The notes below the pieces were generated by a model that was given only the letters and a program-made list of their open reading frames with translations, ran no database searches and was not told the origin of the DNA. This document shows, piece by piece, positions 26,990 to 37,322 of a stretch of 37,825 nt of DNA. The first letter of the stretch is position 1. Each line of letters begins with the position of its first letter. Source of the DNA: Nitrospiria bacterium (GTDB lineage: Bacteria; Nitrospirota; UBA9217); the NCBI GenBank assembly GCA_919901555.1, contig CAKKPG010000034.1, forward strand, positions 1-37,825, written 5' to 3'. A program made the position numbers and the translations under genes.

Positions 26990-28615
26990 ATGGCGCGACA
27001 GAAAAAGACAACTGGCAAGAAAGAATTGCAAAGCGGTAGCCTTGTGTCACGAAAACAGGCAATTGTTCCGTTACCAAACGGCAAATCCCTCGAATCCTGG
27101 ATCTGGGATGCGGCCTGCTCCATTCGCGGCGCGAAGGACGCGGCGAAGTACAAGGAGTTCATCCTTCCGCTCATCTTCACCAAGCGCCTGTGCGATGTTT
27201 TCGACGACGAGCTGAACCGCATCGCGAAAGAGGTCGGCTCGCGAGCCAAGGCGTTCAAGCTGGTGAAGCACGATAAGAAACTCGTCCGCTTTTTTCTCCC
27301 GCTACAACCGATGAACCCCGATGACGCGGTCTGGTCCGTTATTCGCACGCTGTCTGACAAGATAGGCGAGCAGCTCACCACTCACCTCCGCGCCATCGCC
27401 GACGCCAATCCTCTGCTTAAAGGTATTATCGACCGCGTGGACTTCAATGCCACTACCCACGGTCAACGGGATCTCGACGACGACCGACTTTCCAACTTGG
27501 TCGAGAAGATCAGCGCCAAGCGCCTCGGCCTAGCAGATGTGGAGCCAGACATCATCGGCCGCAGCTATGAATACCTTATCCGTAAGTTCGCGGAAAACAG
27601 CGGCCAGAGCGCGGGCGAGTTCTACACTCCGGCCGAGGTAGGACTCATCATGGCTCGCATCATGGACGCAGAACCGGGAATGGATATCTATGACCCCTGC
27701 TGCGGCTCAGCCGGGTTGCTTATTAAGTGCGAGCTGGTGCTCCAGCAAAAGATGAGTCTTCGCTCCCGCAAGACCTTCGCCCCCGCGCGGCTCTATGGGC
27801 AGGAGAATGAGCCCGGCACCTGGGCCATGGCGAACATGAACATGATCATCCACGACATGGAGGGAGAGATACAGATCGGCGACACCTTCCGCAAGCCCAA
27901 GTTCCGCAAGGGCAACCGGCTTCGGACCTTCGACCGGGTGGTGGCCAATCCCATGTGGAACCAGACCGAGTTCAAGGAAAAGGACTACGACGCCGACGAG
28001 CTCGACCGCTTTCCCAAGGGCGCCGGCTTTCCCGGAAGCAAGGCGGACTGGGGCTGGATGCAGCACATCCTCGCCAGCCTGAATGACAAAGGCCGCGCCG
28101 CCGTGGTGCTCGACACCGGCGCAGCCTCGCGCGGCTCCGGCAACGCGAACACCAACAAGGAAAAGGACGTCCGCCGCTGGTTTGTGGAGCAGGACTTGAT
28201 AGAGGGCGTCATCTACCTGCCGGAGAACCTCTTCTACAACACCACCGCCCCCGGCGTCATTATCGTGCTGAACCGGGCAAAGCCGAAGGAGCGGAAGGGC
28301 AAGCTCTTCCTGCTCAATGCAAGCCGCGAGTTCAGCAAGGGCGACCCGAAGAACTACATCCCCGACGACGCCATTGTCCGCATAGCCGACACCTTCACTG
28401 CGTGGAAAGAAAAGGAGAAGTATTCGCGCATCGTCACCCGTGAGGAAATCGCCAAGAACGACTTCAACATCTCCCCCAGCCGCTATATCCACACCGGGGA
28501 AGCGGACGAATACCGGCCCATCGCCGAGATCGTGGAGGAGTTGAACGCGCTGGAGGAGGAAGCCAAAGCCACGGATGCGGCGCTCAAGGAGATTCTGAAG
28601 AGGATCGGGGTATGA
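26990..28615 (+). CDS. hsdM: Type I restriction-modification system DNA methyltransferase subunit HsdM
   Basis: The protein is 541 aa from ATG 26990 (GGAAAGG upstream). It has the N-terminal helical HsdM domain (SLESWIWDAACSIRGAKDAAKYKEFILPLIFTKRLCDVFD, about residues 33-180) and the N6-adenine methyltransferase domain (about 200-500) with EFYTPAEVGLIMARIM, SAM motif I DPCCGSAGLLI and catalytic motif IV reading ANPMWNQ where NPPF/Y is most common. NPMW-type variants occur in this family, so activity is still expected. Together with HsdS it methylates adenines at the recognition site. It opens the island operon; the DUF1016 gene follows after 91 bp. Confidence 0.95.
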   Translation: MARQKKTTGKKELQSGSLVSRKQAIVPLPNGKSLESWIWDAACSIRGAKDAAKYKEFILPLIFTKRLCDVFDDELNRIAKEVGSRAKAFKLVKHDKKLVRFFLPLQPMNPDDAVWSVIRTLSDKIGEQLTTHLRAIADANPLLKGIIDRVDFNATTHGQRDLDDDRLSNLVEKISAKRLGLADVEPDIIGRSYEYLIRKFAENSGQSAGEFYTPAEVGLIMARIMDAEPGMDIYDPCCGSAGLLIKCELVLQQKMSLRSRKTFAPARLYGQENEPGTWAMANMNMIIHDMEGEIQIGDTFRKPKFRKGNRLRTFDRVVANPMWNQTEFKEKDYDADELDRFPKGAGFPGSKADWGWMQHILASLNDKGRAAVVLDTGAASRGSGNANTNKEKDVRRWFVEQDLIEGVIYLPENLFYNTTAPGVIIVLNRAKPKERKGKLFLLNASREFSKGDPKNYIPDDAIVRIADTFTAWKEKEKYSRIVTREEIAKNDFNISPSRYIHTGEADEYRPIAEIVEELNALEEEAKATDAALKEILKRIGV

Positions 28616-28624
28616 ATCGCCATG

Positions 28625-28676
28625 ATAGGATTGCATTCCTATTGAAATGGTGATTTGATCGGAGTGCAATCCGATC
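28625..28676. repeat. Two core-sharing palindromes upstream of the DUF1016 gene
   Basis: ATAGGATTGCATTCCTAT (28625-28642) and GATCGGAGTGCAATCCGATC (28657-28676) are near-perfect palindromes. Read on opposite strands they share the core GGATTGCA(T/C)TCC, but their outer arms differ (ATA/TAT and GATC/GATC). They lie in the 91-bp gap before the DUF1016 start and could form tandem hairpins in the mRNA. Confidence 0.6.
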
Positions 28677-28706: not shown

Positions 28707-29867
28707 ATGGCGACGAAGAAGGCGATAACACGACGAAAAACGGGTGCCGGAGTAGAGGCCCCAATTTGTGACACAGTGCGTCACAAATTCTATGAGTCCG
28801 TTGCAGAGGTCCTTCGCGTTGCCCGTTCAAACGTCTATCGGGCGGTTAACTTCGCCATGGTTGAGGCCTACTGGCACGTTGGGCGGATGATCGTTGAGGA
28901 AGAGCAGCAGGGAAAGGAGCGCGCGGAATATGGTGCATTCCTCATCAAGAACTTATCCATCAATTTGACTGAGGAATTCGGTAAGGGCTTTACTGAGCCG
29001 AATCTGTGGAATTTTCGGCAATTCTATCTATGTTTCCCAAATTGGCACACACTGTGTGCCGAATCAAAGGCCGATAAGAAAGATTCAGATGGGGCCAGTT
29101 GTCCTGAGATTCTCTACGCACTGCGTAGAGAATTGACGTGGACACACTACCGGCTTCTTATGCGCGTGGAAAAACCGGAGGCTCGTGCATGGTATTTGAA
29201 CGAAGCCGCTGACCAGAACTGGAGCACCCGAACACTCGAACGCCAGATCAACTCGCTCTACTACGAGCGCCTACACATGAGCCGGGACAAGAAGCCCGTC
29301 ATCAAAGAGATGCAGCAGAAGACCGCACACCTCGCGCCCGAACCCCGGGATTTCATCAAAGACCCCTATGTACTCGAATTTCTCGGGCTCAAGGACAACC
29401 CCGATTTCCGGGAATCGGATCTCGAACAGGCCATCATCGGCAAGCTCCAGGCGTTCATGCTGGAGCTTGGCAAAGGCTTCGCCTTCGTGGCCCGGCAGCA
29501 GCGCATCAGCACCGAAACCAAGGACTTCTTCATCGACCTCGTCTTCTACAATTACCTCCTCAAGTGCTTTGTCCTGATTGATCTTAAAACCGGGGAACTG
29601 GCCCATCAAGATATTGGTCAAATGGACATGTACGTCCGGCTCTACGAAGATAAGTACAAAAGCCCTGACGACAACCCAACCATCGGCATCATCCTCTGCA
29701 CCGACAAAGACGAAACCGTGGTCAAGTATTCCGTGCTCAAGGAAAACAAGCAGCTCTTCGCCTCCAAGTACAAGCTCTATCTGCCCAGCGAACAGGAACT
29801 GATCGACGAGATCGAGCGGGAGAAGGCGATGATCGTCAGGGAGCGGGGTGTGCTGTATGGAGTTTGA
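28707..29867 (+). CDS. DUF1016/YhcG family PDDEXK nuclease
   Basis: The protein is 386 aa from ATG 28707. It has the DUF1016 N-terminal domain (AVNFAMVEAYWHVGRMIVEEEQQG... TEPNLWNFRQFYLCFP; then LTWTHYRLLMRVEKPEARAWYLNEAADQNWSTRTLERQI) and the C-terminal PDDEXK nuclease domain (ILEF-type FVARQQRISTETKDFFIDLVFYN, then FVLIDLKTGEL with the catalytic D...DLK, and HQDIGQMDMYV). Members are frequent between hsdM and hsdS genes, but their part in restriction is unclear. Three in-frame palindromes lie within residues about 19-28, 113-118 and 135-142, at the edges of the conserved N-terminal blocks. The stop overlaps hsdS by 11 bp. Confidence 0.9.
   Translation: MATKKAITRRKTGAGVEAPICDTVRHKFYESVAEVLRVARSNVYRAVNFAMVEAYWHVGRMIVEEEQQGKERAEYGAFLIKNLSINLTEEFGKGFTEPNLWNFRQFYLCFPNWHTLCAESKADKKDSDGASCPEILYALRRELTWTHYRLLMRVEKPEARAWYLNEAADQNWSTRTLERQINSLYYERLHMSRDKKPVIKEMQQKTAHLAPEPRDFIKDPYVLEFLGLKDNPDFRESDLEQAIIGKLQAFMLELGKGFAFVARQQRISTETKDFFIDLVFYNYLLKCFVLIDLKTGELAHQDIGQMDMYVRLYEDKYKSPDDNPTIGIILCTDKDETVVKYSVLKENKQLFASKYKLYLPSEQELIDEIEREKAMIVRERGVLYGV
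28763..28789. repeat. In-gene palindrome 1 of the DUF1016 gene
   Basis: AATTTGTGAC (28763-28772) and GTCACAAATT (28780-28789) are exact inverted arms around a 7-base centre. The central codons GAC ACA GTG CGT contain the shared core ACRCASTGYGT. Confidence 0.85.
29044..29060. repeat. In-gene palindrome 2 of the DUF1016 gene
   Basis: GGCACACA (29044-29051) and TGTGTGCC (29053-29060) are exact inverted arms around one base. The central codons CAC ACA CTG TGT contain the core ACRCASTGYGT in the same codon phase as palindromes 1 and 3. Confidence 0.85.
29109..29133. repeat. In-gene palindrome 3 of the DUF1016 gene
   Basis: ATTCTCTACGCA (29109-29120) and TGCGTAGAGAAT (29122-29133) are exact 12-bp inverted arms around one base. 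The central codons TAC GCA CTG CGT again contain ACRCASTGYGT in the same phase. Confidence 0.9.
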
Positions 29868-31146
29868 CTTGGAAAATTTGCCTGATGATTGGCAGGTGAA
29901 GCCAATCCGTGAGGCGTATGCGTTCACGAAGAAGCCACGCGGTCTAATGATTGAGGCAGACGGCTCAGTTCCTTTTCTTCCGATGGACACGATTCCCATT
30001 GGGCGTGTTCGCGTATCCGAGTTTGAAGAGCGCCGTGGTTCAGCTCTTACGAGCGGCACATACATTGAAAACGGCGATCTGCTCGTGGCCAAGATTACAC
30101 CCTCTTTCGAGAACGGGAAGCAGGCCATTGTTGACTGGGGAAAGCCTTTTGGTTTCGCGACGACCGAGGTCATTCCGGTACAGGAAGTACAAGGCGTTAG
30201 CGATAAGTTCTTTCTATATCATCTGCTTCTTCATCCTGCGATTCGATCAGACCTTGCGGGGAAAATGGATGGAACAACTGGCCGCCAGCGGTTGAGCAAG
30301 GAAGTTTTCGGCAGCCGCCTCATTCCGCTTCCGCCCCTCGCCGAGCAGCGGAAGATTGCGGGAGTGTTGGGGGTGGTGCAGCAGGCCATCGAGCAGCAGG
30401 AGCAACTGCTTCAACGAACTACGGAACTGAAAGAAAAGCTCTTCCATCAACTTTTCACAAACGGCCTCCGTGGCGAACCTCAAAAGGAAACTGAAATTGG
30501 CCCCGTTCCGGAGAGTTGGGAGTTCGCGCCGCTTGGTGATTATCTGACTGAAGCTCAATATGGCCTTTCAGCAAAGGGTGCTGAGAGCGGACGATACGCA
30601 CTGCTGCGAATGACCAATCAGCAACAGGGTCGGATATCGGGTGAGAGTCTTCAGTATGTTGATCTAACACAGGCTCAATTTGAGAAATTTCGCGTTGCAC
30701 GTAAGGATATTCTGTTTAACCGCACGAACAGCTTTGAACTTGTGGGGAGAACGGCGATTTTTGACATAGAGGGCGATTTCGTATTCGCTTCTTATCTTAT
30801 CCGGTTAAGGACCGATGCCACTCGGTTACGACCATATTTTTTGAACCAATATTTCAATTGGGACGAGACACAGTCACGGTTGAAATCCATCGCTACACGT
30901 GCAATCAGCCAAAGCAATATCAGCGCGACCCGTTTGCGTAGCTTCGTTGTTCCTGTGCCGAAGCCAAACGAGCAGGACGAGATTGTTACCCAGTTGGACA
31001 TCATTGACGCAAAAATTGCAATTCATACTCGGAAGAAAGACGCCTTGACCAACCTCTTCCGTACATTTCTGCACCAGTTAATGACGGCGCAGATTAGGGT
31101 GAATGACCACAAATTCTCTGAGTTCGAAAACATCGCGAAAGGATAA
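29857..31146 (+). CDS. hsdS: Type I restriction-modification specificity subunit HsdS
   Basis: The protein is 429 aa from ATG 29857, overlapping the DUF1016 gene by 11 bp; an in-frame GTG nine bases earlier is less likely. It has two target-recognition domains. The first (about 1-150) starts DDWQVKPIREAY; the central conserved helix follows (PLPPLAEQRKIAGVLGVVQQAIEQQEQLLQRTTELKEKLFHQLF, about 150-200). The second (about 210-360) starts PESWEFAPLGDYL, and the C-terminal helix reads PNEQDEIVTQLDIIDAKIAIHTRKKDALTNLFRTFLHQLM. Each domain reads half of a bipartite DNA site; the site itself cannot be deduced. Base composition drops here relative to hsdM, consistent with exchange of recognition domains. 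Confidence 0.93.
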   Translation: MEFDLENLPDDWQVKPIREAYAFTKKPRGLMIEADGSVPFLPMDTIPIGRVRVSEFEERRGSALTSGTYIENGDLLVAKITPSFENGKQAIVDWGKPFGFATTEVIPVQEVQGVSDKFFLYHLLLHPAIRSDLAGKMDGTTGRQRLSKEVFGSRLIPLPPLAEQRKIAGVLGVVQQAIEQQEQLLQRTTELKEKLFHQLFTNGLRGEPQKETEIGPVPESWEFAPLGDYLTEAQYGLSAKGAESGRYALLRMTNQQQGRISGESLQYVDLTQAQFEKFRVARKDILFNRTNSFELVGRTAIFDIEGDFVFASYLIRLRTDATRLRPYFLNQYFNWDETQSRLKSIATRAISQSNISATRLRSFVVPVPKPNEQDEIVTQLDIIDAKIAIHTRKKDALTNLFRTFLHQLMTAQIRVNDHKFSEFENIAKG

Positions 31147-31149
31147 CTT

Positions 31150-33273
31150 ATGCCAAGCAATTCTCAGCATAAATTTACATGGATCCCGATTTACCATGAA
31201 TTAGCCGAGCAGCTTCTTCAATGGCAGGAACGCCAGAGTGAATTAATCGCATTTCTAGAGGGATTACGCTCGAAGAAGCTTGTCATTACACCTTTGAACG
31301 ATCAAGATGACCAGGGGGCAAGGTTTATTCTCAAGGAAATCGACCCCTTCACATTCTTCGGCGTTTTCAATAGGGGAATCAGAGAAGATCAGCGTCTATC
31401 TATTCTTGCGGAAATCAAAAAAAGCTTTAACTTAAAAAATGAATTGCCACATGATTTTGAGGGTATTCCTCTTGTGAATAATCAGAAATCATGGTTTATT
31501 CCATATCAATATAGACGTAATGTAGACGATGTTTCTCGTTTGTGGAAAGTATTTCGATTAGCACTTGGAGATAAACCACTGGATCATCCCGAGTTTCTGA
31601 AAGCCTTTGATGATGCCCTTAATGTGAGAAACACCAATCTCAATTTGACCATGGGTTTATTCTGGATACGTCCAGATATATTTCTGAATTTAGATCAGAC
31701 CAACCGGCAATACCTTAAAATCAAGCTTCCAAGCGGGGGCTTGTCTGCTCAATTTTACAAAGATACTGTACGGGCCGTGTCGTCCAAATTCGAATCTCTG
31801 CCGGAATTATCAATGGCTGCATGGATTCAAGCAACAAAACAGCCTGAACCCAAAGCTCCGCGCAAATCTCCGGAAGCCGAGATCGGCCCAGATAACAATT
31901 ATTGGATGGTAGGGGCCTACTGGTCTGATAATGATCCACCCGATCAGACAGAGCGTTTTGTTGCTGAAGGAATATGGGAAAACGGGTACGAGGACCGATT
32001 ACTTGACGAAGTTCGATCTATGAAGGTAGGCGACAAAATTGCTATTAAAGCTGCTTCGACTCAACGATCCGATCTGCCATTCGAGGCGCATGGGAAAACG
32101 GTTTCGAGAATGACCATTAAGGCTATAGGGACAATCGTAGCTAATAGAGGTGATGGTCGTGTTGTAGAAATTGAATGGGATCCCTCTTTTAAAGCAAAAG
32201 ACTGGTATTTCTACACCAACCAACAGACGTTGTGGAAATTACGCCGTGACGACCCGTATGCCAAGAGACTGATTGACTTTGCGTTTGGCAATGCCGAACA
32301 GGACTATGCTTGGTTTATTGATCAGCTGCGGGGAACAGACAAGAGCACGGCAAAAACGCCTGTGCCACCTGAGAAGCCAGGCACACACCAACCGTACGGG
32401 ATAGCTGATATGATTTCATCTGGCGTCTTTTTGACTGATGCGGAGCTAAACGATATCCTGGAACGGCTTCAGTCTAAAAAGAACATGATTCTCCAAGGGC
32501 CACCAGGAGTTGGAAAAACCTTTATTGCGAAAAAAATCGCTTATTGCCTGATGGAAGAGATAGATGACCAGCGTATCGAAATGGTTCAGTTCCATCAGTC
32601 CTATTCGTATGAGGACTTTATACGCGGTTATAGGCCTTTACCTGATAAGGCCGGTGCCTTTGGTTTATTTGATGGCGTTTTCATGAGCTTTTGTGAAAAG
32701 GCAAGGAAAGATGATCGACCGCATATTTTCATCATTGATGAGATTAACCGAGGTAATCTAAGCCAGATCTTTGGTGAACTGCTGATGCTGATTGAAACAG
32801 ATAAGCGAGGACCGGAATATATGGTGCCTCTCGTCTACAGACGGCCTGAAGAAGCACGATTCTACATCCCTCAAAATGTTTACCTTATAGGATTAATGAA
32901 TGTTGCTGATCGCTCGCTTGCGATGGTTGATTATGCTCTTCGGCGCCGCTTTGCTTTTATTACGCTCAAACCTGAATTTGAAAACGTTATTTATCGCAGA
33001 TGGTTGTTGGAGCGTAATATGAATCCCGATTTGGCGAAGCTAATCATTGACCGTATTTCGGCTTTAAATAAAGAAATATCCGATGATCCATTGCTTGGCC
33101 CGAATTATCAAGTTGGCCATAGTTTCTTTTGTCCAAGAGGGAATAACTTCGCAGGGCTCGATAGAAGTTGGTATGACGGAGTTGTGAAGACGGAAATCAT
33201 ACCTCTGCTTAAGGAATACTGGTTCGATAATCCCAAGCGTGCTGAACAGGTCAGCGAGAGGCTTCTCAGCTAA
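31150..33273 (+). CDS. mcrB: McrB-type AAA+ GTPase with an EVE/PUA-like N-terminal domain
   Basis: The protein is 707 aa from ATG 31150, three bases after hsdS. Residues about 1-230 are not recognised. Residues about 250-360 (NNYWMVGAYWSDNDPPDQTERFVAEGIWENGYEDRLLDEVRSMKVGDKIAIKAA, then AIGTIVAN) resemble EVE/PUA-like modified-base readers. The motor domain (about 425-707) has Walker A GPPGVGKT (about 450), Walker B FIIDEINRGNLSQIFGELLMLIE and the McrB signature MNVADRSLAMVDYALRRRF. McrB hydrolyses GTP, reads modified DNA and moves it to the McrC nuclease. The base composition is A/T-rich compared with hsdM and hsdR. It overlaps mcrC by one base. Confidence 0.88.
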   Translation: MPSNSQHKFTWIPIYHELAEQLLQWQERQSELIAFLEGLRSKKLVITPLNDQDDQGARFILKEIDPFTFFGVFNRGIREDQRLSILAEIKKSFNLKNELPHDFEGIPLVNNQKSWFIPYQYRRNVDDVSRLWKVFRLALGDKPLDHPEFLKAFDDALNVRNTNLNLTMGLFWIRPDIFLNLDQTNRQYLKIKLPSGGLSAQFYKDTVRAVSSKFESLPELSMAAWIQATKQPEPKAPRKSPEAEIGPDNNYWMVGAYWSDNDPPDQTERFVAEGIWENGYEDRLLDEVRSMKVGDKIAIKAASTQRSDLPFEAHGKTVSRMTIKAIGTIVANRGDGRVVEIEWDPSFKAKDWYFYTNQQTLWKLRRDDPYAKRLIDFAFGNAEQDYAWFIDQLRGTDKSTAKTPVPPEKPGTHQPYGIADMISSGVFLTDAELNDILERLQSKKNMILQGPPGVGKTFIAKKIAYCLMEEIDDQRIEMVQFHQSYSYEDFIRGYRPLPDKAGAFGLFDGVFMSFCEKARKDDRPHIFIIDEINRGNLSQIFGELLMLIETDKRGPEYMVPLVYRRPEEARFYIPQNVYLIGLMNVADRSLAMVDYALRRRFAFITLKPEFENVIYRRWLLERNMNPDLAKLIIDRISALNKEISDDPLLGPNYQVGHSFFCPRGNNFAGLDRSWYDGVVKTEIIPLLKEYWFDNPKRAEQVSERLLS

Positions 33274-34382
33274 TGATTGAAGCTGAAACTATAAATGTTT
33301 CTCATGATGTGCCGCTAACCGATTTCGGCATTCCTATCCGCAATCTGTGGCACATGCTTCTGTACGCATGGAATGAACCCGAGATGCTGCAACAGTGCGA
33401 GTTCGAAGTTGAAAGCGCGCCCAGCCTCGACGCATTGCTTGCTGCTATTCTTGTAAAAATAATGCAACAACGGATGCGTATTGGACTAGGATGCAGTTAT
33501 GTTAACGAAGAAGTTTTTCTTCGTGGTTTGCGAGGCAGGATTGATTTCGCCTATAGCTTAAAATCACGAGCTTTCGAACGAGGGCAGGCATATTGCCGCT
33601 TTCAGCAATATAAAGCCAATGCACCCAAGAATCAGATCATCCGGAGTACGTTGGCGAGACTAATTCAGATCGGAAATTTTGGCCCTGACCAAACTCGGGC
33701 CGAAGAGTTACGTCATAAATTGCGCCGATTGACACGTGATTTGGAAGGGATCGATCTAATAGATATAGATCTGGAATTTATCAGGAGACAAAAACTAGGG
33801 CGGAATGACAGTGATTACAGATTAATGCTGGCCATCTGCGAACTGATTCTTCAACGCCAGATGCCCACTGAAACAGAAGGCAGAAACAAATTGCCTGCCT
33901 TAGATCGCGATGCGCTAACGCTGCATTACGTCTATGAAAAGTTTGTTGCGAACTTCTATAAACTGCATTTGCATGACTGGTCAATAAAGCCGCAATCTCG
34001 TTTTGACTGGCATGCAAGTAAGACTTCTATCTACTTGCCATCAATGCAACCTGATCTTGTAATGCAACACAATCAATCAGGACGGTTAGTAATACTTGAT
34101 ACGAAATTCACTCCCAATAGTCTTGTTAATGGCAGATTTGGAGAGCCGAAATTCGATTCGTCGCATATTTATCAGCTTTATGCATATCTTAGGTCTCAGG
34201 AAACTCTTTCGGAACAGCATAGGGTTATGCCGGGCATATTGCTGTACCCAGCAGCCCGCTATAATTTATCAGAAGCTGTTGAGTTGCAAGGCCACGAAGT
34301 CAGATTCGAAACTGTTGATTTGGCTCTGCCATGGGTGGATATTGGGAAGCGCCTTATGGATTTGGTTGCTGATCCAATTTAG
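33273..34382 (+). CDS. mcrC: McrC-type PDDEXK nuclease subunit
   Basis: The protein is 369 aa; ATG 33273 shares one base with the mcrB stop (TAATG), so the two are translationally coupled. The N-terminal half (IPIRNLWHMLLYAWNE, LRGLRGRIDFAYSLKSR, CRFQQYKANAPKNQIIRSTL) is typical of the McrC family. The nuclease core is MQPDLVM followed by LVILDTKF, a PD-(D/E)xK type motif with DTK. It would be activated by McrB and cleave DNA carrying modified bases. hsdR follows after 15 bp. The A/T-rich composition continues from mcrB. Confidence 0.88.
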   Translation: MIEAETINVSHDVPLTDFGIPIRNLWHMLLYAWNEPEMLQQCEFEVESAPSLDALLAAILVKIMQQRMRIGLGCSYVNEEVFLRGLRGRIDFAYSLKSRAFERGQAYCRFQQYKANAPKNQIIRSTLARLIQIGNFGPDQTRAEELRHKLRRLTRDLEGIDLIDIDLEFIRRQKLGRNDSDYRLMLAICELILQRQMPTETEGRNKLPALDRDALTLHYVYEKFVANFYKLHLHDWSIKPQSRFDWHASKTSIYLPSMQPDLVMQHNQSGRLVILDTKFTPNSLVNGRFGEPKFDSSHIYQLYAYLRSQETLSEQHRVMPGILLYPAARYNLSEAVELQGHEVRFETVDLALPWVDIGKRLMDLVADPI

Positions 34383-34397
34383 CTGTATGCACTGGAT

Positions 34398-37322
34398 ATG
34401 AAAACGCCGTCAGAAAATAAAACCGTCCAAGCCCGTATCCTGCGTTATGCGCAGGACATAGGCTGGACTTTTGTGTCGCGCAAGGAGGCGGAGAGGCGGC
34501 GAGGATTTGATTCTGCCGGGGCTACGCCAGAGGAGCGGGCAAGAAAAAGCTCACTCTTCTTTGGCGACCTTCTCCACGCCCAAGTGCGCGCATTCAACCC
34601 GAAATACAAGGAAGCCGAGGGCGCGCTGGTGGGCGAGTTTCAGCGCCTCCACTCCGACATTTACGGGAACCGTGATTTTCTGAACGTCCTCCGCAATCAG
34701 CATAAGTTCTTCTGCGCCGAGGACAGCCGCGAGCTTGACCTCAAAATCATTGACTACGTTGATTCCTCCAAGAACGTCTACGAAGTAACCGAAGAATTCT
34801 ATTTCCACAACAGTCACTTTGGCAATCGTGAGGACATCGTCTTCCTGATCAACGGCATCCCGGTGCTGGTGATCGAGTGCAAGAACTGCGGCAAGGACGA
34901 GGCGATTGCGCTTGGGGTGGACCAGATCAGGCGCTATCACCGTGAGACGCCGGAGCTGTTCATCCCTCAGCAGGTGTTCACGGCAACGGAAAGCATCGGT
35001 TTCTCTTATGGAGCGACCTGGAATCTCGTCCGACGCAATATCTTCGCGTGGAAGGACAGCACGGTTGGCAACCTCGAAGCCAAGGTTAAGTCCTTCTGCG
35101 CCATTCCCCATATTCTCTCGCTCATCAAGGACTACATCGTTTTTGCCGAGAAGGACGAGGAACTGAACAAGTACATCCTCCGGCAGCATCAGACAGCGGC
35201 AGTCGAGAAGGTTGTGGACCGCGCCCTTGATACGAAGAAGCTGCGGGGACTTGTTTGGCATACGCAGGGCAGCGGCAAGACCTTTACCATGATCAAGGCT
35301 GCTGAGCTTCTGTTCAAGGCCCAGGAGGCGGAAAAGCCCACGATCCTGCTCATGATCGACCGGAACGAGCTGGAAGATCAGATGCTCAAGAACCTGGCCT
35401 CGCTCGGGATCAACAACGTGGAGCACGCGAACCGGATCGAGCGGCTGAACCAGCTCCTACGGCAGGACTACCGGGGCATCATCGTTACCACGATCCAGAA
35501 GTTCCGCGACATGCCGGAGAAAATCAACACGCGAAAAAATATCTACGTATTCATCGACGAGGCGCACCGGACTACGGGAGGGGACCTCGGGAATTATCTT
35601 ATGGCAGGACTGCCGAACGCAACCTATATCGGCTATTCAGGAACGCCTATAGATAAAACTGCCTACGGTAAAGGTACATTCAAGACCTTCGGCCTGGAGG
35701 ACGACAAGGGCTATCTGCACAAATATTCCATAGCCGAAAGCATCGAGGATGGGACGACGCTGCCGCTCTTTTACGCGATTGCACCGAATGAGCTATTGGT
35801 GCCCCATGAGACGCTCGAAAAGGAATTCCTGTCTCTTGCCGAGGCTGAGGGCGTGGCGGACATCGAGGAACTGAACAAGATTCTCGAACGGGCGATCAAT
35901 ACCAAGAATTTCCTCAAAGGCCATGAGCGGGTGGACAAGGTGGCGAAGTACGTTGCCCAGCATTACAAAGAGAACGTTGAGCCGTTGGGATACAAGGCGT
36001 TCTTAGTCGGTGTGGACCGGGAGGCGTGCGCGTTCTATAAGAAGGCGCTGGACAAGTACCTTCCACCCGAGTATTCCGAAGTCGTTTATACGGGGAACAA
36101 CAACGATCCCGCGCTGCTGAAGGAATTTCACCTTGACCCGACGAAGGAAAAGCAGATCAGGAAGAACTTTACGAAGATGGCCGAGCTTCCGAAAATCCTG
36201 ATCGTGACCGAGAAGCTTTTGACCGGGTTCGACGCGCCGATCCTCTATGCTATGTACTTGGACAAGCCCATGCGTGACCATACGCTGCTCCAGGCCATTG
36301 CGCGCGTGAACCGGCCCTATGAGAACGAGGAAGAGGAGATGGTGAAGCCCCACGGCTTCGTGCTGGATTTCGTCGGCATTTTCGACAAGCTGGAGAAGGC
36401 CCTGGCATTCGACAGCGACGAGATCAACGCGGTGGTAAAGGACATCGGGCTGCTTAAGTCCCTGTTCCGGAGCAAGATGGAAAAGGCGGTCCCGAACTAC
36501 CTCAAGCTTATCGAGCGCAATTTCAACGACAAGGACGTGGACAACCTTATCGAGCACTTCCGCGACAAGGAGAGGCGCAAGGAGTTTTTTAAAGAGTATA
36601 AGGAAATTGAGATGCTCTACGAGATCATCTCACCTGACGCGTTCCTGCGGCCTTATCTTGACGACTATGCCACGCTTTCGGCCATCTATGCCGTCGTACG
36701 CAAGGCCTATACGGACAGGGTTTACGTTGACCGGGACTTTCAGAAAAAGACGAATGAGCTGGTGCAATCGAGAATAGGCGCTATTTTAAGCGACGAGATC
36801 AGCGGTGTCTTCGAGATCGGCAAGGAGAGTCTTGAATACATCAAGGAAAACAAGAAGAACGACAATACCAGGGTCATCAACCTCGTAAAGACGATAGATA
36901 AATGGGCTGAAGAAGAGAGCGAGGACCCCTATCTACTGTCCCTTGCCGAGCGGGCGCGCGCCATACAAGAACGATATGAAGACCGGCAGGCAACGACGCA
37001 AGAGGCGCTTGAACTGCTCTGGGCGCTCATCCAGGAAAAAGACAAACGACGAGAAGAACAGGCCAGGAAGGGCTTCGACGGACTGACCTTTTTTGTGTAT
37101 CGAACGCTGCTCGACGCGCAGGTCCCCAATGCGGAGAATATCAGCGGCAAAATCAAGCAGGCGTTCGTGGAATATCCGAACTGGCGGACCAGTGAAAGGG
37201 AACTCCGGGAAGTTCGCAAGAAGGTGACCTTTTCCATATATGCCGAAGTGGACGACCTGGATAAAGTCACCGGGCTGGTAGAAGAGTTATTTGCGCTGCT
37301 GGGAAAGGCGTATAAAATCTGA
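34398..37322 (+). CDS. hsdR: Type I restriction endonuclease subunit HsdR
   Basis: The protein is 974 aa from ATG 34398, with only a weak ribosome-binding site. An N-terminal PD-(D/E)xK nuclease domain (about 60-190) contains ED..FLINGIPVLVIECKN with the catalytic Asp and Glu-x-Lys. The SF2 translocase follows: Walker A HTQGSGKTFTM (about residue 285), DEAH box FIDEAHRTTGG, motif III YSGTPID, then motif VI QAIARVNRPYE. A long helical C-terminus (from about 660) binds the HsdM/HsdS core. All motors and the nuclease look intact. GC content returns to the level of hsdM. It needs HsdM and HsdS to recognise target sites. Confidence 0.95.
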   Translation: MKTPSENKTVQARILRYAQDIGWTFVSRKEAERRRGFDSAGATPEERARKSSLFFGDLLHAQVRAFNPKYKEAEGALVGEFQRLHSDIYGNRDFLNVLRNQHKFFCAEDSRELDLKIIDYVDSSKNVYEVTEEFYFHNSHFGNREDIVFLINGIPVLVIECKNCGKDEAIALGVDQIRRYHRETPELFIPQQVFTATESIGFSYGATWNLVRRNIFAWKDSTVGNLEAKVKSFCAIPHILSLIKDYIVFAEKDEELNKYILRQHQTAAVEKVVDRALDTKKLRGLVWHTQGSGKTFTMIKAAELLFKAQEAEKPTILLMIDRNELEDQMLKNLASLGINNVEHANRIERLNQLLRQDYRGIIVTTIQKFRDMPEKINTRKNIYVFIDEAHRTTGGDLGNYLMAGLPNATYIGYSGTPIDKTAYGKGTFKTFGLEDDKGYLHKYSIAESIEDGTTLPLFYAIAPNELLVPHETLEKEFLSLAEAEGVADIEELNKILERAINTKNFLKGHERVDKVAKYVAQHYKENVEPLGYKAFLVGVDREACAFYKKALDKYLPPEYSEVVYTGNNNDPALLKEFHLDPTKEKQIRKNFTKMAELPKILIVTEKLLTGFDAPILYAMYLDKPMRDHTLLQAIARVNRPYENEEEEMVKPHGFVLDFVGIFDKLEKALAFDSDEINAVVKDIGLLKSLFRSKMEKAVPNYLKLIERNFNDKDVDNLIEHFRDKERRKEFFKEYKEIEMLYEIISPDAFLRPYLDDYATLSAIYAVVRKAYTDRVYVDRDFQKKTNELVQSRIGAILSDEISGVFEIGKESLEYIKENKKNDNTRVINLVKTIDKWAEEESEDPYLLSLAERARAIQERYEDRQATTQEALELLWALIQEKDKRREEQARKGFDGLTFFVYRTLLDAQVPNAENISGKIKQAFVEYPNWRTSERELREVRKKVTFSIYAEVDDLDKVTGLVEELFALLGKAYKI

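Follow-up and report, generated by a model that had tools for sequence, protein, structure and literature searches.

Several described systems resemble the arrangement considered here, in which a gene carries a palindromic DNA site predicted to be recognized by its own product. The lac operator O2 lies within lacZ and is an intragenic operator, and homing endonuclease genes interrupt their own target site. The proteins ParB and Noc (chromosome partition and nucleoid occlusion) act on the palindromic sites parS and NBS, and ParB reads parS with the helices alpha-4, alpha-6 and alpha-8, on which a few residues set the specificity (PMC7383237). Rickettsia palindromic elements (RPEs; Ogata et al., cited in PMC4316617) are described in the citing paper as inserts of 100-150 nt, found in many genes as well as in non-coding places, that leave the reading frame open. 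Here we analyze a stretch of 37,825 nucleotides from a Nitrospiria bacterium (contig CAKKPG010000034.1 of assembly GCA_919901555.1), in the following called the window. It contains a gene of the DUF1016 (YhcG) family, and within this gene three palindromes, one of which is very probably the recognition site of the encoded protein.

The DUF1016 sites share properties with each of these systems. Like lac O2, they are repressor-type dyads inside coding sequence, but they lie in the gene of their own putative reader, and do so across phyla. As with homing endonucleases, the target is present in alleles without the gene (the solo site of E. coli described below), whereas the cognate DUF1016 site is intact inside the gene and not interrupted by insertion. 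ParB and Noc appear to share with DUF1016 proteins a related DNA-binding fold, a palindromic site and a few specificity residues on three equivalent helices (PMC7383237); DUF1016 proteins have a PD-(D/E)XK nuclease in place of the CTPase domain, and their site lies in their own gene in nearly every member, with widely different arms. RPEs are likewise in-gene palindromes with the frame kept open, but the DUF1016 sites are about 17-35 bp long, are associated with a single gene family, and covary with the protein it encodes. The literature on yhcG, DUF1016 and the defence candidate PDC-S02 (see below), judged mostly by titles, abstracts and passages, reports no embedded site, palindrome or recognition code. 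As far as the literature found goes, no gene family appears to have been described whose members, across phyla, have the predicted binding site of their own product within the coding sequence.

Three palindromes within one gene

The gene and its palindromes are located as follows (positions refer to the window).

28707..29867, + strand: DUF1016 / YhcG gene, 386 amino acids, with an apparently ParB-like DNA-binding N-domain and a PD-(D/E)XK nuclease (Pfam)
28763..28789, no strand: site 1, half-site GCGTCACA; AATTTGTGACACAGTGCGTCACAAATT, 27 bp, 12 of 13 pairs, one A/C mismatch
29042..29062, no strand: site 2, half-site GTGTGCCG; exact part 29044-29060, GGCACACACTGTGTGCC, 17 bp
29109..29133, no strand: site 3, predicted cognate site, half-site GCGTAGAG; ATTCTCTACGCACTGCGTAGAGAAT, 25 bp, exact palindrome
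29034..29138, + strand: length-variable, largely disordered loop, codons 110-144, which holds sites 2 and 3; predicted local distance difference test (pLDDT) < 50 for residues 113-136

An initial annotation described three exact inverted repeats with a common core in a single codon phase. The description is accurate for the exact part of site 2 and for site 3, while site 1 contains the mismatch listed above. The core ACRCASTGYGT is indeed common to all three sites and is read in one phase, as GAC-ACA-GTG-CGT (DTVR) in site 1, CAC-ACA-CTG-TGT (HTLC) in site 2 and TAC-GCA-CTG-CGT (YALR) in site 3. Only four copies of this core are found in the whole 3.45-Mb genome, three of them inside the DUF1016 gene. 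When the synonymous codons of the gene are shuffled (n = 300), palindromes of this strength occur with a mean of 0.10 per shuffle and a maximum of 2, never 3. Chance, already considered unlikely in the annotation, and codon usage are thereby ruled out as source of the palindromes.

Palindromes across the DUF1016 family

To what extent the palindrome is shared was assessed using 304 distinct DUF1016 genes, relatives from many phyla, aligned automatically and taken in many cases from metagenome-assembled genomes. A palindrome with a score of at least 7 is present in 272 of these genes (89%), and with a score of at least 8 in 250; at the equivalent place, the majority of the other genes show a palindrome that is weaker or imperfect. 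The arms vary from gene to gene, and a common form is AATT-N6-RCA-S-TGY-N6-AATT. The dyad centre falls on codon position 1 in 273 of 276 palindromes. Shuffling synonymous codons in 158 of the genes yields a palindrome in 0-5 genes, compared to 136 observed, so that the outcome named in the annotation as its refutation, shuffled codons giving as many palindromes, did not occur. The place of the palindrome is likewise conserved: it is almost always the length-variable loop bounded by the motifs FRQFYLTFP and LSWTHYRL; the annotation had proposed to check whether the sites coincide with length-variable alignment columns. Some members have several palindromes arranged serially within the loop, and yhcG of E. 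coli K-12 contains three, with a fourth located 15 nt beyond the stop codon.

Two further observations concern individual members. The E. coli yhcG alleles L204 and L205 are without a stretch of 78-80 bp that bears palindromes 2 and 3; L205 remains in frame and L204 is annotated as frameshifted. On two unrelated contigs, palindromes in or near DUF1016 genes, one upstream of the gene and one at nucleotide 910 of the gene, have the common core TCAAGGAATACTTGA.

Covariation of protein residues with the half-site

Three segments of the protein contain residues that covary with the palindrome.

28995..29033, + strand: recognition helix, codons 97-109; residues 98, 101 and 102 covary with half-site positions 5-9
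29139..29162, + strand: helix apparently equivalent to ParB alpha-6, codons 145-152 (WTHYRLLM); residue 146 covaries with half-site position 3, residue 149 with position 4
29226..29252, + strand: helix apparently equivalent to ParB alpha-8, codons 174-182; residue 174 covaries with half-site position 3, residue 175 with position 2

For 268 genes, we calculated the mutual information that links each half-site position to the protein columns, leaving out the loop in which the palindrome is encoded. The strongest pairs, in window numbering, are T174-position 3, P98-7, T146-3, R149-4, N102-6, W101-8 and R175-2, and all seven residues lie outside the palindrome. As a control, the half-sites were shuffled among the members of each of 19 clusters (about 50% identity). 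Against this within-clade background, z exceeds 6 in 9 of 3887 pairs, which involve only residues 98, 101, 102, 146 and 174, and the pairs R149-4 and R175-2 reach z = 5.0 and z = 4.5, respectively. The underlying residue-base counts are as follows: arginine 149 goes with G in 114 of 120 cases, arginine 98 with C in 80 of 82 (a G on the opposite strand), arginine 175 with G in 193 of 194, tryptophan 101 with A in 46 of 47 and threonine 174 with C in 67 of 68; Asn102 is mostly accompanied by A and Val174 mostly by T. The pairings Arg-G, Asn-A and Val-T fit known contact chemistry.

The resulting recognition code was cross-validated using as training set only proteins with less than 60% identity. 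It reaches 0.96 at position 3 (nearest relative, 0.62) and 0.70 at position 7 (0.39), and the code performs better than the nearest relative at most positions. The gene's own half-site has a median rank of 2 among 145, and for eight genes from viral contigs outside the training set it ranks 1-6 of 145. For the window protein, residues P98, W101, N102, T146, R149, T174 and R175 predict the half-site GCGTAGAG, which is exactly that of site 3 (code score +5.3); for site 1 the score is -10.3, and for site 2 it is -14.3. For E. coli K-12 YhcG the code predicts GTCTGGCG, which is the half-site of the first in-gene site and also of the solo site of strains without yhcG.

The annotation had proposed, among other options, that the palindromes are bound or cut by a nuclease, possibly the encoded one. 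Judged from the code, binding by the encoded protein is supported for 29109-29133, whereas sites 1 and 2 do not fit this protein and are non-cognate. The latter fit other specificities and probably represent acquisitions from, or remnants of, related genes; 16 DUF1016 genes of the set have GCGTCACG/A, which resembles the half-site of site 1, as their main half-site.

Relation to ParB

In AlphaFold2 models the covarying residues fall on three helices, and the intervening loop is predicted to be disordered in the window protein. These helices appear to correspond to the three with which ParB reads parS. The profile HTH_ParB matches residues 140-183 of the window protein at 18.9 bits, under its cut-off of 22.6 bits; similarly weak matches occur in 63 of 64 DUF1016 proteins, and one DUF1016 gene exceeds the cut-off. 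An hhalign comparison with a set of ParBs (14 rows, of which one is apparently misassigned) gives E = 5e-4 with 31% probability. Using Foldseek, ParB/Noc DNA-binding domains dominate the plausible matches (E of about 0.1-3), none of which is individually significant, and a sequence search against solved structures returned no match. Kinship of DUF1016 and ParB is therefore considered likely, with no single test establishing it.

Occurrence of sites within genomes

A pattern search in the genomes of 40 relatives gives 27 matches: 25 are inside DUF1016 genes, and the two that are not lack self-complementarity. Among 248 genomes of another phylum, the Bacteroidota, self-complementary matches are mostly found in DUF1016 genes or fragments thereof, and some elsewhere. 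Because of these solo sites outside intact DUF1016 genes, we describe the palindromes as mostly, rather than exclusively, associated with the family. Five of the Bacteroidota solo sites, which share identical 27-mers, are located at hsdM-hsdS junctions of type I restriction loci, within a short open frame similar to the middle part of DUF1016 around the palindrome; other Bacteroidota genomes have a full DUF1016 gene at this junction instead of the short relic. Likewise, E. coli strains without yhcG retain one perfect solo palindrome, AATTCGCCAGACAGTGTCTGGCGAATT, between gltD and nanQ. BLAST matches in E. coli fall at a median of 2 places per genome, and the E. coli YhcG query gave no match among viral contigs. 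Together with the four copies of the core in the window's own genome, the genome-wide pattern searches rule out a general mobile or dispersed palindromic repeat such as RPEs or repetitive extragenic palindromic (REP) elements. A matching palindrome upstream of the gene is found for only a few DUF1016 genes, and promoter operators are hence rejected as a general rule.

Two side observations concern solo palindromes. The gltD-nanQ palindrome is kept in three E. coli loci without intact yhcG, in one of which it is preceded by GAGGTAACAATG, resembling a ribosome-binding site and start codon. One contig of a genome without DUF1016 match contains three identical copies of the perfect palindrome AATTTTGCAGGCAGTGCCTGCAAAATT within a longer repeat.

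The gene, its domains and its operon

The window gene is an ordinary member of the DUF1016 / YhcG family by both Pfam domains and by the PADLOC models. The protein scores 152.7 bits for PF17761 (DUF1016_N; gathering score 32.8 bits) and 201.9 bits for PF06250 (YhcG_C; 32.5 bits). The nuclease residues D277, D292 and K294 are conserved throughout, or almost throughout, the 64 aligned proteins. In PADLOC the family is entered as phage-defence candidate PDC-S02, whose model matches the window protein with E = 1.1e-150. Its neighbours in a type I restriction operon are hsdM on one side and hsdS on the other.

29349..29801, + strand: YhcG_C PD-(D/E)XK nuclease domain (profile match and alignment)
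26990..28615, + strand: hsdM, type I methyltransferase (context)
29848..31146, + strand: hsdS, type I specificity subunit (context)
34398..37322, + strand: hsdR, type I restriction subunit (context)

The same operon contains McrB-like and McrC-like genes at 31150-34382, flanked by hsdS and hsdR. Two more palindromes, imperfect ones, ATAGGATTGCATTCCTAT and GATCGGAGTGCAATCCGATC, lie in the intergenic region between hsdM and the DUF1016 gene (28624-28676). Their common core GGANTGCANTCC has three copies in the genome, including these two; the loci of seven close relatives showed none. The same genome has one more DUF1016 gene, a truncated one, which retains palindromes with different arms (half-site GCGGACAC).

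Nature and role of the site

The sequence evidence makes it very probable that the DUF1016 protein, with an apparently ParB-like N-domain and a PD-(D/E)XK nuclease as C-domain, recognizes the palindrome at 29109-29133 within its own gene. The computation supports this by the presence of the palindrome across the family, its character of a DNA dyad rather than an RNA structure, the covariation of residues and bases, and the exact prediction of site 3. We infer recognition from mismatch counts and covariation, and several lines of evidence agree. The presumably dimeric helix-turn-helix domain would physically bind the dyad and read both halves. The site, encoded in a disordered loop, would be nested between two DNA-reading segments of the protein, and site and specificity would therefore be inherited together.

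Two readings deny the palindrome such a role, and both are very improbable. A perfect palindrome in the transcript can fold, and the annotation had suggested mRNA hairpins by which the gene controls its own expression. An mRNA hairpin under selection should accept G-U pairs more readily than A-C pairs, but among 3788 pairs on the coding strand the imperfect ones comprise 46 A-C and 21 G-U. The mismatch types therefore favour a double-stranded dyad site; moreover, the covariation partners are equivalents of the DNA-reading residues of ParB and some sites lie outside the gene. Equally improbable is that the palindromes are a selfish element, or arise by template switching with the arms kept complementary, and have no part in recognition. 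Loops with several palindromes in series and the additional non-cognate sites speak for it. The hairpin-type element of the annotation, tolerated at domain edges, is supported in part by the variable loop and by genes with several sites. Against a selfish element, most sites are in DUF1016 genes or at loci that formerly had one, and the arms are predictable from protein residues.

As to the role of binding, our tentative first choice, and the simplest reading, is an intragenic operator by which the protein would limit its own expression; we prefer it because the gene is usually the sole match in its genome (in most genomes examined). Solo sites and the scarcity of upstream sites leave room for two other roles. 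One, rather doubtful, is mobility: the nuclease would cut the palindrome in loci or alleles without the gene, repair from a carrier would copy the gene in, and solo palindromes would be targets or scars. The conserved nuclease residues and the alternation of full gene and relic with intact palindrome at Bacteroidota hsdM-hsdS junctions would fit, as would the E. coli locus, where the site kept by strains without yhcG has the half-site predicted for K-12 YhcG, while most of the carriers examined have, 3' of yhcG, a palindrome (GTCTGCAG) that does not match the predicted one. Yet the intact cognate site inside the gene would expose the gene itself to cutting, and deletion leaving a relic accounts equally for the solo sites. 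The other, also unlikely, is that the protein loads at the palindrome in the manner of ParB to mark or guard DNA, with the nuclease acting elsewhere, possibly in phage defence. The ParB-like reader domain, the PDC-S02 match and the restriction operon argue for such loading; on the other side, no ParA-like gene is found among the six annotated genes of the window, Pfam finds no ParB CTPase domain in the window protein or the DUF1016 relatives scanned, and PDC-S02 is a candidate only, for which the literature searched shows no functional test.

Several points weigh against recognition by the encoded protein or against the operator role. The absent CTPase match is one of them, and kinship with ParB is weak by every single measure (HTH_ParB, hhalign and Foldseek). 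Codon constraints could bias the mismatch count. The code positions were picked on the same data that were later cross-validated, and four of the eight viral genes belong to that set, though they were out of training. Co-inheritance could explain part of the correlation, as the palindrome lies next to codons 98-102 and 146-149; residues 174-175 are separated from it by about 30 codons that carry little signal, which argues against co-inheritance as the whole cause. An operator about 300 nt into a gene is unusual, and only a few genes have a matching upstream site. Solo sites outlast the lost gene, which plain autoregulation leaves unexplained.

The findings provide a predicted DNA-binding specificity and a readable recognition code for a large uncharacterised nuclease family that includes YhcG of E. 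coli K-12, and thereby a concrete starting point on what defence-associated DUF1016 nucleases do. More speculatively, and less probably than not, the family may be a self-addressed system: with the address nested between specificity codons, recombination would alter reader and address together; after loss of the gene, the address would live on at restriction loci in the form of solo sites and would be read in trans by related proteins, and matching or non-matching addresses within a population would govern the spread, exclusion or control of the nuclease. DUF1016 genes, in any case, appear to be carriers of the address of their own protein.
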